A DNA stretch of 21,474 bases, taken from positions 1 to 21,474 of IMG/VR virus record IMGVR_UViG_3300009180_000256; one strand, written 5' to 3'. The notes beneath the pieces were generated by a model. It made no database searches. It was not told where the DNA came from and saw nothing but the letters and a program-made list of their open reading frames with translations. A program made the position numbers and the translations under genes. The first letter of the stretch is position 1, and each line of letters opens with the position of its first letter. Below are positions 12,229-21,444 of the stretch, piece by piece. The stretch is from a virus.

Positions 12229-15186
12229 CTAGGTCCAGTTGGGGTTCTGGGATGGGGTTATGCCACCCCATGCGGGAACTTGGGCTGGTGTGATCCCACC
12301 CCAAGTGGGGTTCTGGGCTGGAACTAGTTGACCCCAAACAAAAGCTTGTCCAACATACCCTGTTGCACTAACCCCTGCAACTTGTGCAATCGTGGCAAAA
12401 CTGATCGATGTAGTACCGGCATATCCGGTAGCAGAGACCCCTGTGACGAAGGCGTCAATGGGACGGTCAACGGTTACGGAACCAACTTGCCCGGATGCTG
12501 AAACCCCTGTCAAAGTTGTGCTTACGCTTACGGAAGCGACAACCGTTCCAACCTCACCTGTGGCAAAGACCCCTGTTACGGGAACATTTTGGGTTAGGGT
12601 TACTGTGGGTGTCCCAACCTGACTAGTAACAGATACCCCTGTTAGGGCTGCGCTACCGTTAAAAACGGCTGCTGCTGTTCCAACTGCGCCTGTCGCAGAT
12701 ACGCCCGTCAGAGTTGCGCTACCGTTAAAAACGGCTACCGCTGTTCCAACTGCGCTTGTTGCAAATACGCCGACTACCGCCACATTTTGTGTGAACGTGG
12801 CAGTAGCTGTTCCAACTGCACTAGTCGAAGACACACCCGTGACGGATACGCTGTTGTTGAAAGAGGCTACGGCCGTTCCAACGCTCCCCGTCGCGGATAC
12901 ACCCGTGACAGACACGCTATTGTTAAAAGTAACTGTGGCTGCTCCAACGCTCCCCGTCGCAGATACACCCGTGGGGGTTATATTTGCCGTAGAAGTAACT
13001 GTGGATGACCCAACACCGGTTGTTGAAGCCACCCCCGTTACGGAAGCTTTGAAGTCAAAGGTAAGGGTAGGTGTTCCAACGCTACCCGTCGCTGACACAC
13101 CCGTTACGTTTGCGTCTACAACAACACTAGTCGAAGCAGTTCCGACAGACCCTGTCGCTGATACGCCAGTTACACTTACACTAGTGTCGGTTGGTGGCGT
13201 GTAGGTGATGACGATCAAGCCGCTGCCACCAGAACCGCCAGCAGACCTTTGGCCGGTATTGGTCCCTTTATAACTGCCGCCGCCGCCGCCCGCGCCAAAA
13301 ATACTGCTACCGCCTTCGCCGTTTGCAGTTGAGCCAGCTACACCACTGAAGCCGCCGCCTGAACCACCAGCGCCGCCAATAGTTTTTAGTATATCAATCC
13401 CCGCGCCACCAACAGCCCCAGTAAGACTGCTGCTGCCGCCGCCGCCGCCGCCGCCGCCATTGCGCCCGGCAGTATTAGCGCTGCCACCACCAAAACCCTG
13501 CGAATTGTTGCCACCAACAGATGCTGACCCGTTGGAGCCCCCGCCATTGCCGCCGCCGCCGCCCCCATTATTTCCAGAACCTGAAGCCCCAGTAGCTCCA
13601 ACCGCTCCATTTCCATTGGGGCCGCCCGCCCCACCACCACCACCACCACTTATTACTGCGGTGCTGGATGTTGACCCTACAGAAGTACCACCAGTCCCTC
13701 CATTGAAATTTGATCCGGTGCCTCCAGTTCCGGGGGTTACAACGCGCGTTGTTCCATTTGTGTTTCCGCCAGTGCCGCCGCCAGCGGAGTAGGTTCCACC
13801 AGATGGGTTTGGTATGGTTGTGCTTCCGCCAGTGCCCCCAGTACTAGCAGCACCGCCCGCAGGGCCAGCCGCTCCTCCAGCGCCGATTGAAATTGACGAA
13901 ATTGTTGAAGACGCACTAATTAGATAGTTTGATACAGCAGTATATCCGCCGCCGCCGCCGCCCGCGCCGCCAGCCTTGCTTGTGGAACTAGCAAAAGCTC
14001 CACCCGATCCGCCCCCGCCGCCACCAACAAGGTAGATGGCGTTGTTGGATGGGTTCCAGTCAGCGGGCGTTGTCCAAGACGTTACTGCTGCATCGGAAAT
14101 GTAATAAACCACTTGCGGATAGGTGACGAACGCCGCGCCGCTATTGTTGCCGTTGTTGGTTGAGTTGCCGCCCACATACCATGTGTAAGGCGTAGAGCCG
14201 TTAGATGTCGCTGTGTCAGGAGTAAATATCAGATCGCGCAGGGTGTTGTAATCGCCGCGCGGCGTACCAGTGCCGGTGTAGTTGATGGTCGTCGTCGTGC
14301 CGGAAGTGGGACTATTCAGGGTCAGCGTTGCGGTGGAGGTTCCGCTGATGCCGCTGGTCGAGTTGATGTTGGTGGTAATGCTGACGGGAAGTGTAATCGT
14401 CGATGAGGCGGTGGCGGCGATGCCCCCGAAGGTGTTCGTCCCCGTGACGGTAAGCGTGGTCCCCGCACCGCCGTTTGTTAGAACGCAGTTGAACGTGGAC
14501 CCACCACCGGCAAATGTCCTAGAGCCGCTTGCGGGTACGAAGGTGATGTCACCGACGCCGGTCCCTGCGGTAGTTGTGAACCCAGAAGGCGCGGCGTTGT
14601 TGAAACCAGTAGTATTAGTTCCAGTTATGCGAATCGACCCACCATTAAACGTAATGCCCTTTGTGCCCGCCGCAGTCGTAATAGCCTTTGTGGTGGAAAA
14701 AGTTTTTCCGTTTAGGTCTAGCGTACCGTTTGTGAGAGTAGTTTCACCAAAACCACCAGCACTTCCATTTAGCGTAAGCGCGTCCTGAAGCACCCAAGTG
14801 CTTCCAGAGCCGTTAAAATTTATGTTGCAAAAAACCGAAAACCCACCAAAGGTGAGTGTTTTGGACCCCGTACCGGCAAATGTAATGGTAAAACCGCTAG
14901 AAACAGGATAAGACACGGTAGCCGGAGAAACTATAGTGACGCTGCCATGAATTGCCCAAGAGCCGGATGTTGCGGTAAACGAAATAGCACCATTAGTTAT
15001 AGATATATTGGCGCAAGCAATAACGCTTGCGCCGATTGATACTATGTAACTGCCCGCCCTATCAAAAAAAACATTGTCCGCAGAAGTGGGGACGGTTGTG
15101 TTGGCGGGGCCTCCAGAAGAAAGTGACCAGTTGGTTGCAATGTTCCAAGATGTGTTGCCGGCTCCAATGTAATACTTATCAGTCAT
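12229..15186 (-). CDS. Large glycine-rich tail fibre with beta-helix-like N-terminus and 22-residue repeats
   Basis: This is a 985-aa protein with four parts. Residues 1-380 are a Thr/Ser/Gly-rich beta-helix-like domain, opening with [20 protein letters not shown] and [10 protein letters not shown] and ending near [16 protein letters not shown]. Residues about 383-665 are a glycine-rich domain ([12 protein letters not shown] to [10 protein letters not shown]), similar in type to polyglycine-II adhesin domains. Residues 672-950 are 13 copies of a 22-residue unit ([15 protein letters not shown] plus about seven variable residues). Residues 951-985 are three 11-residue tryptophan units ([11 protein letters not shown] type). 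No enzyme active site is evident. It starts two bases after the stop of a 72-aa gene, with a weak GGCGGTG site. It is probably a receptor-binding or side fibre; the virion location is inferred from the neighbouring fibre genes. Confidence 0.85.
12232..13173. repeat. 66-bp (22-aa) repeat array followed by 33-bp (11-aa) tryptophan repeats
   Basis: Thirteen degenerate units with conserved TGVSATGxVGT cores span about 12337-13173. Twelve average 22 residues (one of 23 is followed by one of 21), and the last is shortened to 15. Three 11-residue units of the form WGG-I-TP-A/S-Q-xP then occupy 12238-12336, ending in WT. The divergence between units suggests an old array maintained by selection, not a recent duplication. 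Eleven is half of 22, so the two repeat types may share one structural period. Confidence 0.85.
13435..13458. repeat. GCC trinucleotide tract (8 units) in the 985-aa fibre gene
   Basis: Eight perfect GCC units encode eight glycines on the minus strand within the glycine-rich domain. Similar shorter tracts lie nearby (for example about 13555-13562 and 13946-13961). Whole-unit slippage would be in frame. Confidence 0.85.
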
Positions 15187-15900: not shown

Positions 15901-16190
15901 CAGAGCCTCCTGAGATGTTCGGCCAGTGTAGGGTGACCCGCTTCTGAGACCAGATAGCTGATCGTTGATCTGTCGCACTTTATAGCACGTTTTATATGTT
16001 CAAGGACAACCACTTCGATGGATGCCTTGAATGCTCTTGCCTGCTCCTGAATAGCAGGGTGGGCCGTATCGGCAACTTGGACAATACGATCAGCGGCCCT
16101 TTTAGCCCAGAACTCGGGGGAATGACCCCCATTGTCAGAGGCTTCAACATCTACCCCAAAGGTCTCTATGGTCGCGGCATTCACAAACAT
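15900..16190 (-). CDS. Conserved phage hypothetical protein (96 aa, DUF7681-like)
   Basis: The opening MFVNAATIETFGVDVEASDN and the GGHSPEFWAKRAADRIVQVAD segment match a small conserved phage protein that I believe is catalogued as DUF7681. The rest is helical: AIQEQARAFKASIEVVVLEHI, then a C-terminal helix with HPTLAEHLRRL. There is no membrane segment or catalytic motif. The start overlaps the stop of the 211-aa adaptor gene (TAATG), and its own stop overlaps the next start, so it is coupled on both sides. The role is unknown; the family number is from memory and less certain than the homology. Confidence 0.8.
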   Translation of the reverse strand: MFVNAATIETFGVDVEASDNGGHSPEFWAKRAADRIVQVADTAHPAIQEQARAFKASIEVVVLEHIKRAIKCDRSTISYLVSEAGHPTLAEHLRRL

Positions 16191-16825
16191 TAGTTAGCCT
16201 TCACTCTAAGGAGACCGTCGCGGTATGCGTCTGTCTCTTCGCGGCCTTCGCCGAAGTTGATCAAGCGGTTCAAGGACTCAAGGAACCGGTTGTTGTAGAA
16301 CTGAAGAAGTTCTTGGTCACCCTTCATGAAAGTATACGCCTCGACCAGCGAACCGTAAAGAAGCGCCTGCTCTGCATTATTACCCAGCCAACTTGTGCCA
16401 GCAGTCACAATAGACTCAGGCTGGTAATAGTAATGAAGTTCAACCGAAAAACCACTACTAGGTACAGGAGCCAGAAGAATAGTATTTATGTCGAAAAATG
16501 AATAGTACTTCGGAACACCCTGTGCCCCAGTTGGGTTGTACTCTTGTAGGTATTCCACATCTTTGTTCAAAAGAAAAACGGTGGAACCGGAAGATGACAC
16601 AGAGAGGCTAAATGGGGACAGGTAGTCACTTGGCACAGAAAGGTACTTATTACCCGCCGTGCAAACCCCCGATATGTTTTTTCTAAAAACTTGAAGGTCT
16701 ACTGCATAGAGCAGCCGCTCTTCACAGTTCCTGATGAACGTGTTGATGTTATCGTTAAAGTTTGTTTCGTTGTATTCGGTGAAGTCCTTGATGGCTTGCA
16801 CCAATGTCGTGTAGGTCCATGCCAT
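16190..16825 (-). CDS. Head-to-tail adaptor protein (SU10-adaptor / gp11-like)
   Basis: This 211-aa protein opens with TYTTLVQAIKDFTEYNETNF, then INTFIRNCEERLLYAVDLQ. This helical pattern is typical of phage adaptor or tail-tubular-A-like proteins (the Phage SU10 adaptor family) that form a ring under the portal. A beta-rich centre follows (YLSVPSDYLSPFSLSV to ILLAPVPSSGFSVELHYYYQ), then C-terminal helices (EQALLYGSLVEAYTFMKGDQ), matching the expected helix-sheet-helix arrangement. The start at 16825 has an AGGGTGA site that overlaps the previous stop. With the 228-aa protein upstream it probably builds the neck between capsid and nozzle. The assignment is by characteristic sequence pattern. 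Confidence 0.83.
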   Translation of the reverse strand: MAWTYTTLVQAIKDFTEYNETNFNDNINTFIRNCEERLLYAVDLQVFRKNISGVCTAGNKYLSVPSDYLSPFSLSVSSSGSTVFLLNKDVEYLQEYNPTGAQGVPKYYSFFDINTILLAPVPSSGFSVELHYYYQPESIVTAGTSWLGNNAEQALLYGSLVEAYTFMKGDQELLQFYNNRFLESLNRLINFGEGREETDAYRDGLLRVKAN

Positions 16826-17136: not shown

Positions 17137-17823
17137 TTACACCACCCGGTAGAAGTTCTGCACGGGGGTTAGCTTCAAGGCCGCTCGGTCACGGTCCTCA
17201 CCCGACGCACGCTCAAACTCCTCTTCGTAAGAAGCCCGGAGCATCTGGGCGCGCTCCGGGGCCTTCTTGAGGGATAGATAGTAGGCAAGACCAGCAGCTA
17301 GACACGGGTAGAACCTAAACGGAACGGCGAGAGTATTTGCGCCTGCAGCGGCATCATCAATGCGAACAAGCTTGTTGACGATGATGTAGTAGGTCGTGTT
17401 CGGCTTGGGCCACAGATAAAGTTCGGGAGTAATCTGCCTGTCCACAAAGTACTGAACCGGACGTCCCGGCGTCAGCTTGTTTGGGATGTTGAGATAGTAC
17501 TCCCTGCTGACCCGTTGAACAGTCAGATCCACCTGTGTGGATGTTCCGGAGTTTGTGGTAAACCGGACAACAGCCGATATGATGTCAATCGTGGACGCAG
17601 AAAGCGTGTAATGCTCGCTGCTAGGGGTGACCGTAATGATCTCCTCTTGGATAGTCCACTGATTGAGACCACGGTTAGCCCATTCAGCAAGCAACAGATT
17701 CAGGCTGCGGCGAGCCGTGCGCTGGTCGTAACCAGTTCGAACGTCTATGCCGCAACGCTCAAACGCCTCCTCGATGTAGTCCGCTACATCGAGTTCGAAC
17801 GTCTTGGTGCCTGAAGTCGTCAT
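17137..17823 (-). CDS. Head completion / connector protein (P22 gp4-like adaptor type)
   Basis: This 228-aa protein begins after a GAGGT site. Residues 9-50 (FELDVADYIEEAFERCGIDV, then DQRTARRSLNLLLAEWANRG) form helices characteristic of phage connector or head-completion proteins. These continue with LNQWTIQEEIITVTPSSEHY, a beta-rich centre (VQRVSREYYLNIPNKLTPGR and LYLWPKPNTTYYIIV), then FRFYPCLAAGLAYYLSLKKA and an acidic/basic C-terminal helix. This matches the family of P22 gp4-like or tail-accessory proteins that seal the portal after DNA packaging. It is the first gene of the neck block and precedes the zinc-ribbon and adaptor genes. Confidence in a connector role is good; the precise ring it forms is inferred. 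Confidence 0.82.
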   Translation of the reverse strand: MTTSGTKTFELDVADYIEEAFERCGIDVRTGYDQRTARRSLNLLLAEWANRGLNQWTIQEEIITVTPSSEHYTLSASTIDIISAVVRFTTNSGTSTQVDLTVQRVSREYYLNIPNKLTPGRPVQYFVDRQITPELYLWPKPNTTYYIIVNKLVRIDDAAAGANTLAVPFRFYPCLAAGLAYYLSLKKAPERAQMLRASYEEEFERASGEDRDRAALKLTPVQNFYRVV

Positions 17824-17834
17824 TCGTTGCTACC

Positions 17835-18182
17835 TCAGCAAACTTTGCCGCCCTTTTTGTAGGCCGCACCCATACCACGGGTAGCGATGCCGCCGCCCTT
17901 GAGAGCGATGCCCTTACCCTTGACAGCAATACCGCCGCCCCTAAGGCCCTTCATGGATTGCTGGGCATCGTGCTTCTTATCAGCATCAGAAGCCTCGTAG
18001 TCCTTCAAAGACATACCGCGCTTCTTGGCAAGCTTTTTATCTTGAGCAAGATCCGTCTTGGAGCCTTCCCACTCTTTCGTGGTCATGCCACCCTTTTTAA
18101 AGCCCTTTTTCATCTTCTTCTCCTTCGTGGCCTTGTCAAACATACCAATGTTCATAAGCCCTGTGGGGGAGTTGCTGGCCAT
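17835..18182 (-). CDS. Lysine-rich protein with C-terminal GIA-x-K/R-G heptad repeats
   Basis: This is a 115-aa, strongly basic protein. Residues 24-32 carry MKKGFKKGG. Residues 34-75 are helical and charged, with two similar halves (TTKEWEGSKTDLAQDKKLAK and MSLKDYEASDADKKHDAQQ). Residues 84-111 are four consecutive seven-residue units: GIAVKGK, GIALKGG, GIATRGM and GAAYKKG. The chain ends GKVC with a terminal cysteine. The neighbouring 190-aa protein ends with the same heptad motif. Similar proteins are known to me from environmental phage genomes, without a function. High charge and glycine content suggest nucleic-acid or membrane contact inside the virion, but that is speculation. It lies directly upstream of the connector gene. 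Confidence 0.8.
   Translation of the reverse strand: MASNSPTGLMNIGMFDKATKEKKMKKGFKKGGMTTKEWEGSKTDLAQDKKLAKKRGMSLKDYEASDADKKHDAQQSMKGLRGGGIAVKGKGIALKGGGIATRGMGAAYKKGGKVC
17838..17933. repeat. Four tandem heptad units (21 bp each) at the C-terminus of the 115-aa basic protein
   Basis: Four consecutive in-frame units of seven residues fit the pattern G-I/A-A-x-K/R-G/K-x. The DNA copies share a gcgatgcc/gcaataccg-like core on the plus strand but differ at several positions, so the repeat is conserved more at protein than DNA level. Confidence 0.8.
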
Positions 18183-18183
18183 A

Positions 18184-18756
18184 TCAGCACATCCTCATCT
18201 TGCCCTGACCGCGCTGGGCGATACCCGCTCCACGGACCGATCCGCCGGACTTCTTCTTGACCATACCGCCCTTGCGGTATGAATCTTCATAGCCCTCAAT
18301 AGGCTTTGAGACAGACTCCTTGTCAACGGGGAACCCAGCATTCTTCTCAACCATGTTCTGGCCGACAGTCCTCAGACGTCCCGTGGTCGGGGGCTTCTCA
18401 GGCGCCTGCACATCGTTCTCACCCGCACGATAAAAACCAGAACGAACAGTGCCGTATCGCCCCTGCTTCATGTCGCTATTAACGGTAACAGAAGAACCCT
18501 TCTCCGCATCATCGTTGAGCTTCTGATTATAGTACCCTCGGGGGGAAGCTTCTTCGGAGGGGTAGGATTTTTCAGGGTCATCTACACGGGGGATGTCGCG
18601 CTTTGGGGGGAGCGGGACGGACTTCTTGGAAGACCCACCTTCCCCGGCCATACGGGTGCTATAGGACTTCCCCTCAAACTCAAAGGTCTTGTCGCCGCTA
18701 TTGCGAGCCTCTTTAAAGGCTTGTTCAAAACGCATGCGTGTTGCGCTCTTAGCCAT
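18184..18756 (-). CDS. Basic hypothetical protein ending in an RGAGIAQRGQG motif
   Basis: This is a 190-aa protein. The start at 18756 (MAKSATRMRFEQAFKEARNS) is preferred over an upstream in-frame ATG at 18876, because the longer form would overlap the 55-aa gene and adds arginine-rich sequence typical of a wrong frame. Residues 1-35 contain a short conserved-looking block (FEQAFKEARNSGDKTFEFEG). The middle is hydrophilic and proline-rich, probably disordered. The tail has YRKGGMV (160-166), GGSV (171-174) and RGAGIAQRGQGKMRMC (175-190), matching the heptad motif of the next gene and again ending in cysteine. The gene lies one base after the 55-aa gene stop and two bases before the next start (18182). 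The function is unknown. Confidence 0.78.
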   Translation of the reverse strand: MAKSATRMRFEQAFKEARNSGDKTFEFEGKSYSTRMAGEGGSSKKSVPLPPKRDIPRVDDPEKSYPSEEASPRGYYNQKLNDDAEKGSSVTVNSDMKQGRYGTVRSGFYRAGENDVQAPEKPPTTGRLRTVGQNMVEKNAGFPVDKESVSKPIEGYEDSYRKGGMVKKKSGGSVRGAGIAQRGQGKMRMC

Positions 18757-18757
18757 C

Positions 18758-18925
18758 CTACTTCCCCTTCTTAGCTTTGCCCGCCTCAGAAAGGGCGATG
18801 GCGATTGCCTGCTTGCGGTTCTTGACGACCGGACCCTTCTTGGACCCGGTGTGCAGAGTTCCTGTTTTGAACTCATGCATGACCTTGCCTATCTTGGCTT
18901 GGGCCTTTGAAGGTTTCTTGGCCAC
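18758..18925 (-). CDS. DUF6496-type 55-aa basic protein, GTG start
   Basis: The encoded protein is 55 residues: MAKKPSKAQAKIGKVMHEFK at the start, TGTLHTGSKKGPVVKNRKQA next, then IAIALSEAGKAKKGK. The KVMHEFKxGxLHTGSKKGPV and NRKQAIAIALSEAG parts are the hallmark of the DUF6496 family, small basic proteins of phages and bacteria with no known role. GTG at 18925 is the only start giving the complete conserved N-terminus; the only ATG further in (MHEFK) would cut the domain. Ribosome-site complementarity is weak (GGGTAAGTGAC). The stop lies one base before the 190-aa gene start, and the previous gene ends one base upstream, so it is embedded in the cluster of basic proteins. Confidence 0.85.
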   Translation of the reverse strand: MAKKPSKAQAKIGKVMHEFKTGTLHTGSKKGPVVKNRKQAIAIALSEAGKAKKGK

Positions 18926-18926
18926 G

Positions 18927-19274
18927 TCACTTACCCTTCTTCTTGCCCATGGCGATCATGATCATGATGCCACCCTTCTTGGGGGGGACCTTGCCGCCCT
19001 TGTTCATGTCCATGGGGGCAGCCTTCTTCTTGACAGACCCACCCTTCTTCATACCCATGGCGGCACCGGGAGGGGGAGCCATCTCGGGAGGGGGAGCCAT
19101 CTGAGGGGCCGCACTCTTGCGGGACATGGCGGCAAGAACCTCTGGCGGGGGGGCCATGGGTTTATCGGCAGCGGTAGCGCGACGGGTAGGAGCCTTCATC
19201 ATGGAGTCAGCAACTGCTCGGGCTCTAGCGCGACCAGCGAGGCTGTCCTTTTTACGGTCTGGCTTACCAATCAT
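18927..19274 (-). CDS. Lysine/proline/methionine-rich low-complexity protein with KKGG motifs
   Basis: This is a 115-aa basic protein of low complexity. Residues 1-40 are arginine- and alanine-rich and probably helical. Residues 40-70 carry three MAPPPE/G units. Residues 75-103 have three KGG motifs (MKKGGSVKKK, NKGGKV and PPKKGG). A short hydrophobic run (GGIMIMIAMG) precedes the lysine-rich end. The start overlaps the stop of the coiled-coil gene as ATGA, indicating coupling. I recognise the style (KGG plus a lysine tail) from small phage proteins in virion gene clusters, but no function is established to my knowledge. The low complexity weakens homology claims. Coding is supported by the overlap and continuous frame. 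Confidence 0.72.
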   Translation of the reverse strand: MIGKPDRKKDSLAGRARARAVADSMMKAPTRRATAADKPMAPPPEVLAAMSRKSAAPQMAPPPEMAPPPGAAMGMKKGGSVKKKAAPMDMNKGGKVPPKKGGIMIMIAMGKKKGK

Positions 19275-20535: not shown

Positions 20536-21444
20536 TTATGCGCCGGGCGAAGCGTACATCGCGCGGGGATCAGACCAGCCGAAGCTATAACGCTCGCGGG
20601 CCTTGTAGCGGGCGTTGCCGGTCTCAAAGTCGCCTTCCATGGCGGTCTTGAGAGGGCTGCGCACGAAGTGCTTCATGCCGTTGGGAGCATCCGTCTTGAC
20701 GAACCAAGCATCAGGGTCCGTCAGGAAGTGGTTGATCGCAAAGCCCTGCGGCATGTAACCACCCGACTTCAACGCATTGATGTCGTTGTCGGCGGTAGAG
20801 ACACGCTGCTCAGACTTGAGGATGCGCTCGGCGGTAAACTGAAGTGCCGGGGGCAGGATCAGCTTCATGCCGCGAAGAGCAATCTTCAGGCCACGCTCGT
20901 CGATGAACGCCGCGATGTCGATCAGGGCCTGCTCCAACGAAGTCTCGTTGAGATCGGCCGCAGTCGCCAGCGTGTTCGACCAAGTTCCGCCACCAGTGGT
21001 GTTGTGCGCGTTGTAGATCAACGGAGCGCCGTCTCCACCCAGATAGCTGGACGAGAAAGCGTTGTTGAGTACAGAAGCGCCCTTCACCTGTTTGGTGTTG
21101 GACATCGAACGCGCCAGAGCGCGGGTGTAGCGGGCACTGAGCTTGTCGTAGAGGTTGTCCTCAACGGCTTCCTCAGTGATCGCAAACGCGAGAGCGATGG
21201 TCTCGTGCGTATAGCGGGCAGTGAAAGCTTCACCAGCCGTATCGTACGTGATCGCCGCGCCTTCGCCCTTCACAGGGGCCTGACCAAAGCCAGACAGCAT
21301 GACCTCTTCCTCAAACGCACGGTCCGAAGACTCGGTGTCGAAGATCTCGGTATGCTCGTTGTCGTATCGGTCGTACTCCATACCGAAGAGGGCGTTAAGA
21401 CCCGGCTCCAGTTCCTTCAGGAGTTGTGAACGAGTGATTGCCAT
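20536..21444 (-). CDS. Major capsid protein (HK97-fold, environmental-phage type)
   Basis: This is a 302-aa protein with an AAGGGAG ribosome site before ATG at 21444. The N-terminal part (LLKELEPGLNALFGMEYDRY) and then EEEVMLSGFGQAPVKGEGAA, YTHETIALAFAITEEAVEDN and LARSMSNTKQVKGASVLNNA match a widespread major-capsid family of tailed phages. These have the gpT/N4-gp56-like pattern with a long central helix. Later segments LKIALRGMKLILPPALQFTA, SGGYMPQGFAINHFLTDPDA and a C-terminal YSFGWSDPRAMYASPGA are consistent with the P and A domains. There is no fused protease and no separate N-terminal scaffold domain. The strong terminator immediately downstream supports a highly expressed structural gene. 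Portal, scaffold and terminase genes should lie to the right. Confidence 0.88.
   Translation of the reverse strand: MAITRSQLLKELEPGLNALFGMEYDRYDNEHTEIFDTESSDRAFEEEVMLSGFGQAPVKGEGAAITYDTAGEAFTARYTHETIALAFAITEEAVEDNLYDKLSARYTRALARSMSNTKQVKGASVLNNAFSSSYLGGDGAPLIYNAHNTTGGGTWSNTLATAADLNETSLEQALIDIAAFIDERGLKIALRGMKLILPPALQFTAERILKSEQRVSTADNDINALKSGGYMPQGFAINHFLTDPDAWFVKTDAPNGMKHFVRSPLKTAMEGDFETGNARYKARERYSFGWSDPRAMYASPGA

Follow-up and report, generated by a model that had tools for sequence, protein, structure and literature searches.

Genes and tails in the window

The window analysed here is the whole 21.5-kb virus record IMGVR_UViG_3300009180_000256 (positions 1-21,474). Its minus strand holds a structural block, which runs from the major capsid gene through several small genes to P0002, P0001 and an SU10-type adaptor gene. 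The features of this block, with the basis of each assignment, are as follows:

20536-21444, minus strand: major capsid protein (PF25209, phrog_371), which groups the phage with HTVC023P and DSL-LC04 (family match)
18927-19274, minus strand: P0003, a neighbour with a different tail, KKGG..MIMIAMGKKKGK (translation and relatives)
18758-18925, minus strand: untagged DUF6496-like protein of 55 aa (window ORF assigned by eye)
18184-18756, minus strand: P0002, 190 aa, with an N-terminal FxxAFxxARxxGxxxFxxxGKxYxT domain (translation, relatives)
18235-18273, minus strand: KGG-containing lead-in of the P0002 tag, KGGMVKKKSGGSV (alignment columns)
18187-18234, minus strand: P0002 tag, RGAGIAQRGQGKMRMC, core starting at -16 (tail kept while unrelated bodies alternate at the locus)
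17835-18182, minus strand: P0001, 115 aa, a short conserved body with a multi-unit tag (translation, relatives, AlphaFold2)
17838-17945, minus strand: P0001 tail, overlapping [RK]GxGxAx[KR]G units with a 7-residue period, ending in GAAYKKGGKVC (translation)
17137-17823, minus strand: adaptor protein (PF24175 SU10_adaptor), directly downstream of P0001, a candidate docking region
16190-16825, minus strand: second SU10_adaptor-like protein (E 4.4e-24)

The capsid protein shares 57-71% identity with the capsids of phages such as HTVC023P, DSL-LC04, Pag-Yong1 and CRP-902. The two SU10_adaptor-type genes (17137-17823 and 16190-16825) are separate and lie near each other. Elsewhere in the window, positions 12229-15186 encode a 985-aa protein with many short repeats and a Gly-rich stretch, which is probably tail-fibre-like.

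Minus-strand translation confirmed the tails of both window proteins as first described: P0001 ends in ...LRGGGIAVKGKGIALKGGGIATRGMGAAYKKGGKVC and P0002 in YRKGGMVKKKSGGSVRGAGIAQRGQGKMRMC. BLASTP of one against the other aligns mostly these tails (12 of 26 residues identical, E 5e-4, in a single comparison), and the core [RK]GxGxAxxG occurs in no other of the 217 window ORFs of at least 30 aa.

The body of P0001 carries the motif W/YExSxxDxxxDKKLAKKRGM... (about 17955-18080), and its relatives contain from 0 to 5 core matches, some of them ending in a single tag or in a different tail. The preliminary description spoke of a heptad repeat; a seven-residue period is indeed found in the P0001 family, but the tag consists of a single unit elsewhere. 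AlphaFold2 modelled P0001 with a mean pLDDT of 54, predicting four short helices at residues 35-73 and an unstructured tail (pLDDT below 50), and confidence was low throughout, too low for a fold search; the model agrees with disorder without proving it.

The reading frame of P0002 extends to 230 aa, and three relatives begin at the methionine of the 190-aa version. A KGG motif had also been noted at the tails. It often precedes the core, but P0002 has SGG there and would be missed by the strict first search pattern given below; its core nevertheless begins at -16, as in other tagged proteins. At this locus, directly upstream of P0001, relatives encode six unrelated groups of bodies whose last 16 residues are 73% identical.

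The N-terminal domain of P0002 is weakly matched in Rhizobium T7-like phages (tblastn E 2e-3 to 6e-2), in proteins whose gene adjoins the portal gene and whose tail differs from the tag. One of these, gp034 of Rhizobium phage RHEph01 (L325 19992-20492), combines the P0002-like domain with a portal-adjacent gene and an invariant tail.

Distribution of the tag

The tag core can be written [RK]GxGxAx[KR]G and usually starts 16 residues before the stop codon. Searching with the tails alone by tblastn gave no matches, probably as a result of low-complexity masking, and DNA patterns were therefore used. The first was a stop-free DNA pattern for KGGx[VMIL etc.]RGxGxAx[KRQ]G, scanned blind over IMG/VR. 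It gave at least 129 matches, all in open frames near the C-terminus; among the 129 matches listed, 104 started exactly 21 residues before the stop, and the maximal distance was 49 residues. A second form of the tag, RGGGAAx[KRQ]GxKFxG, was likewise scanned blind over IMG/VR, and each of its 121 matches started exactly 16 residues from the stop. By comparison, 257 Gb of prokaryote genomes contained about 20 stretches fitting the first pattern, of which one is apparently genuine (L318, KGGIVRGAGAATKGKKFTRAG); the others are chance matches. These two scans and the prokaryote control place the likeness of the two window tails far beyond chance. The suggestion of a terminal tag on unrelated bodies is borne out, as the tag follows diverse N-terminal bodies, is almost always C-terminal and keeps a fixed register, and the contrary picture of a motif limited to two orthologous families, with no positional conservation and free variation at the C-terminus, is contradicted.

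Among 5420 ORFs from loci chosen by their capsid gene rather than by the motif, the shorter core was matched 34 times; 21 of these matches fell within 25 residues of the C-terminus, and 12 lay exactly at -16. In the same sample, a tail profile gave 25 matches of at least 12 bits, against zero when the sequences were reversed. A cultured pelagiphage, HTVC023P, carries the core exactly at -16 in gp32 and gp51, and gp30 has a looser version of the tag; gp32 adjoins the putative portal gp31. Connector regions read in HTVC027P, CRP-902, 023Pt_psg01, Caulobacter RW and QDWS535 (parts of genomes) showed no tag, and it is thus not universal in the clade.

We had initially attached some weight to the cysteine that ends both window proteins, as a conserved feature possibly serving disulfide linkage. 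The residue is not conserved, and the disulfide idea finds no support: the last residues of distinct tails from the first scan are varied (R 31, Y 18, G 15, V 13, F 8, K 8, S 7, C 5), and C, F, L and Y all occur as the final residue among orthologues of P0002 itself. The cysteine is incidental.

The core can also stand at the other end of a protein. In DSL-LC04 (L097 21016-21243) it is found at the N-terminus (MAGRGMGCATRGGG) of a small protein whose gene lies directly upstream of the adaptor gene, and N-terminal cores are also present in L273 and L294. Two other kinds of tail recur. Proteins encoded between the portal and GroES/capsid genes (L449-L568) end in AGxGEGRLEKxxxYG, with about 130 matches, most of them 13-31 residues from the stop and some in tandem (for example, MW202675 yenB, L100 10041-11189). 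In P0003-type tails, a third recurring type, Gly and Lys come after a hydrophobic stretch (MIMIAMGKKKGK, VVMIAMGKGKKK), with relatives in L013, L015, L018, L025 and L047. Some relatives at the P0003 locus carry the tag core as well.

Bodies carrying the tag

With a median length of 148 aa and a median pI of 10.6, tagged proteins are small and basic, and a single phage contig may hold up to three tagged genes. By single-linkage clustering, bodies bearing the first form fall into 48 clusters and those bearing the second into 16. The bodies include LysM, DUF6496 and EF-hand-like kinds and others of no known family. Among 80 tagged proteins scanned, LysM was found in 7 and DUF6496 (PF20106) in 3, so that the DUF6496 body does bear the tag in other phages, unlike the window copy at 18758-18925. 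Eight of the 80 matched phrog_16759 and phrog_22033, the latter annotated as virion structural; in examples examined singly, these matches correspond to one N-terminal module of about 45 residues.

P0001, P0002 and P0003 match no Pfam or PHROGs family at E <= 0.1. Tail and profile searches found no tag in PDB sequences, the best matches being chance KGGKMRG stretches in alginate lyases, and no description of the tag was found in a library of open-licence papers, whether sought by motif strings or under the names HTVC023P and Pag-Yong1. As judged from these three sources, the tag is apparently new.

Selection on the peptide and gene neighbourhood

Tags from the same phage resemble each other. 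At variable sites, tag identity is 0.77 within contigs (11 pairs) versus 0.33 between contigs (0 of 20000 resamples), the eight invariant columns imposed by the search pattern having been left out of the comparison. In L146, the two tags are identical at 21 of 21 residues and differ by 10 silent codon changes. Because same-phage tags are alike while their codons differ silently, it is the peptide that is under selection. The gene-end position and the tandem units of P0001 might be put down to a regulatory or recombination element that lies at the ends of genes and is translated by chance. We nevertheless reject such a DNA-level element, which we rate as highly improbable, in view of these silent differences; moreover, most invariant glycines are encoded by GGT or GGC, which make no ribosome-binding (Shine-Dalgarno) run, and all listed matches to the first form (129 of 129) and all matches to the second (121 of 121) are open and in frame.

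Marker genes of the clade are present on 117 of the 120 tag-bearing contigs, and the tagged gene shares the strand of its nearest marker in all 126 testable cases. The adaptor gene lies downstream of the tagged gene in 95 of 107 cases, at a median distance of 596 bp, and genes with the second tag form are close to the portal gene, although this clustering by connector genes could mirror a common late-gene position instead of binding. Over 28 contigs, tag similarity tracks adaptor similarity when capsid similarity is controlled (partial r 0.37, 1 of 500 permutations), while the reverse partial correlation, with capsid tested and adaptor controlled, is 0.09 (127 of 500 permutations), a contrast that may reflect linkage, the adaptor gene being nearer to the tag gene.

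Comparison with T7 gp7.3 and other known systems

The closest anatomical parallel is gp7.3 of phage T7, a tail assembly or host range and adsorption protein of 99 residues with an ordered C-terminal loop (84-98), six copies of which are fixed to the nozzle where nozzle and adaptor meet; its basic N-terminus surrounds the DNA in the channel, and lysines contact the DNA end (PMC11784390). Divergent gp7.3 proteins keep 8-15 of their last 16 residues versus 5-13 of their first 40, and the genes of gp7.3 relatives adjoin the portal gene. As in the gp7.3 family, the tag is a conserved C-terminal peptide on a variable body, the genes lie beside portal or adaptor genes, and the body is small and basic (median pI 10.6), its disorder being suggested by the P0001 model (pLDDT 54). 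Unlike in T7, where one such protein is known, there are many unrelated tagged bodies and up to three tagged genes per contig; the peptide is also different (KKSLSVARSSGGGINI in T7), and the phages belong to another clade. No convincing homology between the tag and the gp7.3 tail emerged: ungapped scores are mostly negative, and neither phmmer with the P0002 tail nor hmmsearch with the tag profile over PDB sequences matched the T7 protein 7.3 chain (9jyz). The Rhizobium tail SAISLGIARRRNAPVSK is weakly similar to that of gp7.3; scores equally high were obtained by 6 of 1448 background C-termini and 218 of 20000 shuffles, and this likeness of sequence is weakly suggestive, a lead only.

Short shared peptides are known from other particles. 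The capsid targeting sequence of T4 is common to several unrelated internal head proteins and places them in the particle; it is N-terminal and is removed by the prohead protease. The tag is likewise one short peptide on otherwise unrelated phage proteins but, unlike the T4 sequence, is C-terminal with a fixed register. Encapsulin cargo-loading peptides are short, C-terminal and found on diverse cargo, all of which applies to the tag; the sequences differ, however, and the tag implies no encapsulin shell, the capsid family identified in this phage being that listed above (PF25209, phrog_371). Finally, RGG-box or protamine-like basic tails share its richness in Gly, Arg and Lys, whereas the tag has a defined core at a fixed distance from the C-terminus.

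Possible roles of the tag

In our analysis, the chances are about evenly balanced that this common tail serves as a docking peptide at the C-terminus, or address tag, used by one large clade of aquatic podovirus-like phages at the head-tail connector. We propose this reading on indirect grounds: the tagged genes adjoin connector genes, tags covary within a phage, as a common partner in each phage would lead one to expect, and the anatomy resembles that of T7 gp7.3, whose conserved C-terminal loop, held in the virion, would serve as the model. As the virion assembles, each protein would bind repeated sites on the connector (adaptor, portal or nozzle) through its extended tail. The body, basic in tagged proteins and, to judge from the P0001 model, probably disordered, would then occupy the channel or lie by the end of the DNA, mostly disordered and positively charged, and would be released or ejected at infection, when a LysM body, for example, could act on the cell wall. 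The several units of P0001 could reach across several docking sites.

The main rival to docking is a cargo-loading signal, akin to the capsid targeting sequence of T4 but placed at the C-terminus, in which the tag would bind the procapsid scaffold, the inner capsid or the portal core and load proteins into the head for ejection. The many unrelated bodies per tag, LysM among them (7 of 80), the body module common to phrog families annotated as virion structural and the covariation of tags within a phage all suit such a signal. We consider it rather unlikely, as tagged genes lie by adaptor and portal genes and not directly by the capsid gene, and the adaptor tracks tag similarity better than the capsid protein does. 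A Gly/Lys/Arg-rich peptide might instead coat DNA or RNA and have no specific protein partner, as the composition and the median pI of 10.6 would allow, and T7 gp7.3 offers a precedent in the lysines that touch the DNA end (PMC11784390). Yet a tail driven by charge would not be expected to keep a constant spacing from the C-terminus, to preserve particular Ala and Gly positions or to covary within a phage, which makes a nucleic-acid-binding role improbable. Even less credible is a function after ejection, with the tag sending proteins to the host envelope or to a cytoplasmic target: LysM bodies do suggest a role at the cell wall, but the tag is essentially absent from prokaryote genomes, and its tight link to connector genes within a single clade of phages argues for a partner encoded by the phage.

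Somewhat doubtfully, we envisage a general, transferable C-terminal loading tag, common to a whole phage clade and serving many different accessory proteins, whereby any body placed before the 16-21-residue tail would enter the particle at one site and reach the host.

Implications for aquatic phages

Unannotated small proteins of abundant aquatic phages, including a cultured pelagiphage, become one testable class, defined by RGxGxAx[KR]G at -16. Should the tag serve for loading into the virion or for docking at the connector, packaged proteins would be predictable from sequence alone, and phages would be able to exchange accessory functions while the address is retained. T7 gp7.3, long a lone curiosity, may represent a wider strategy.
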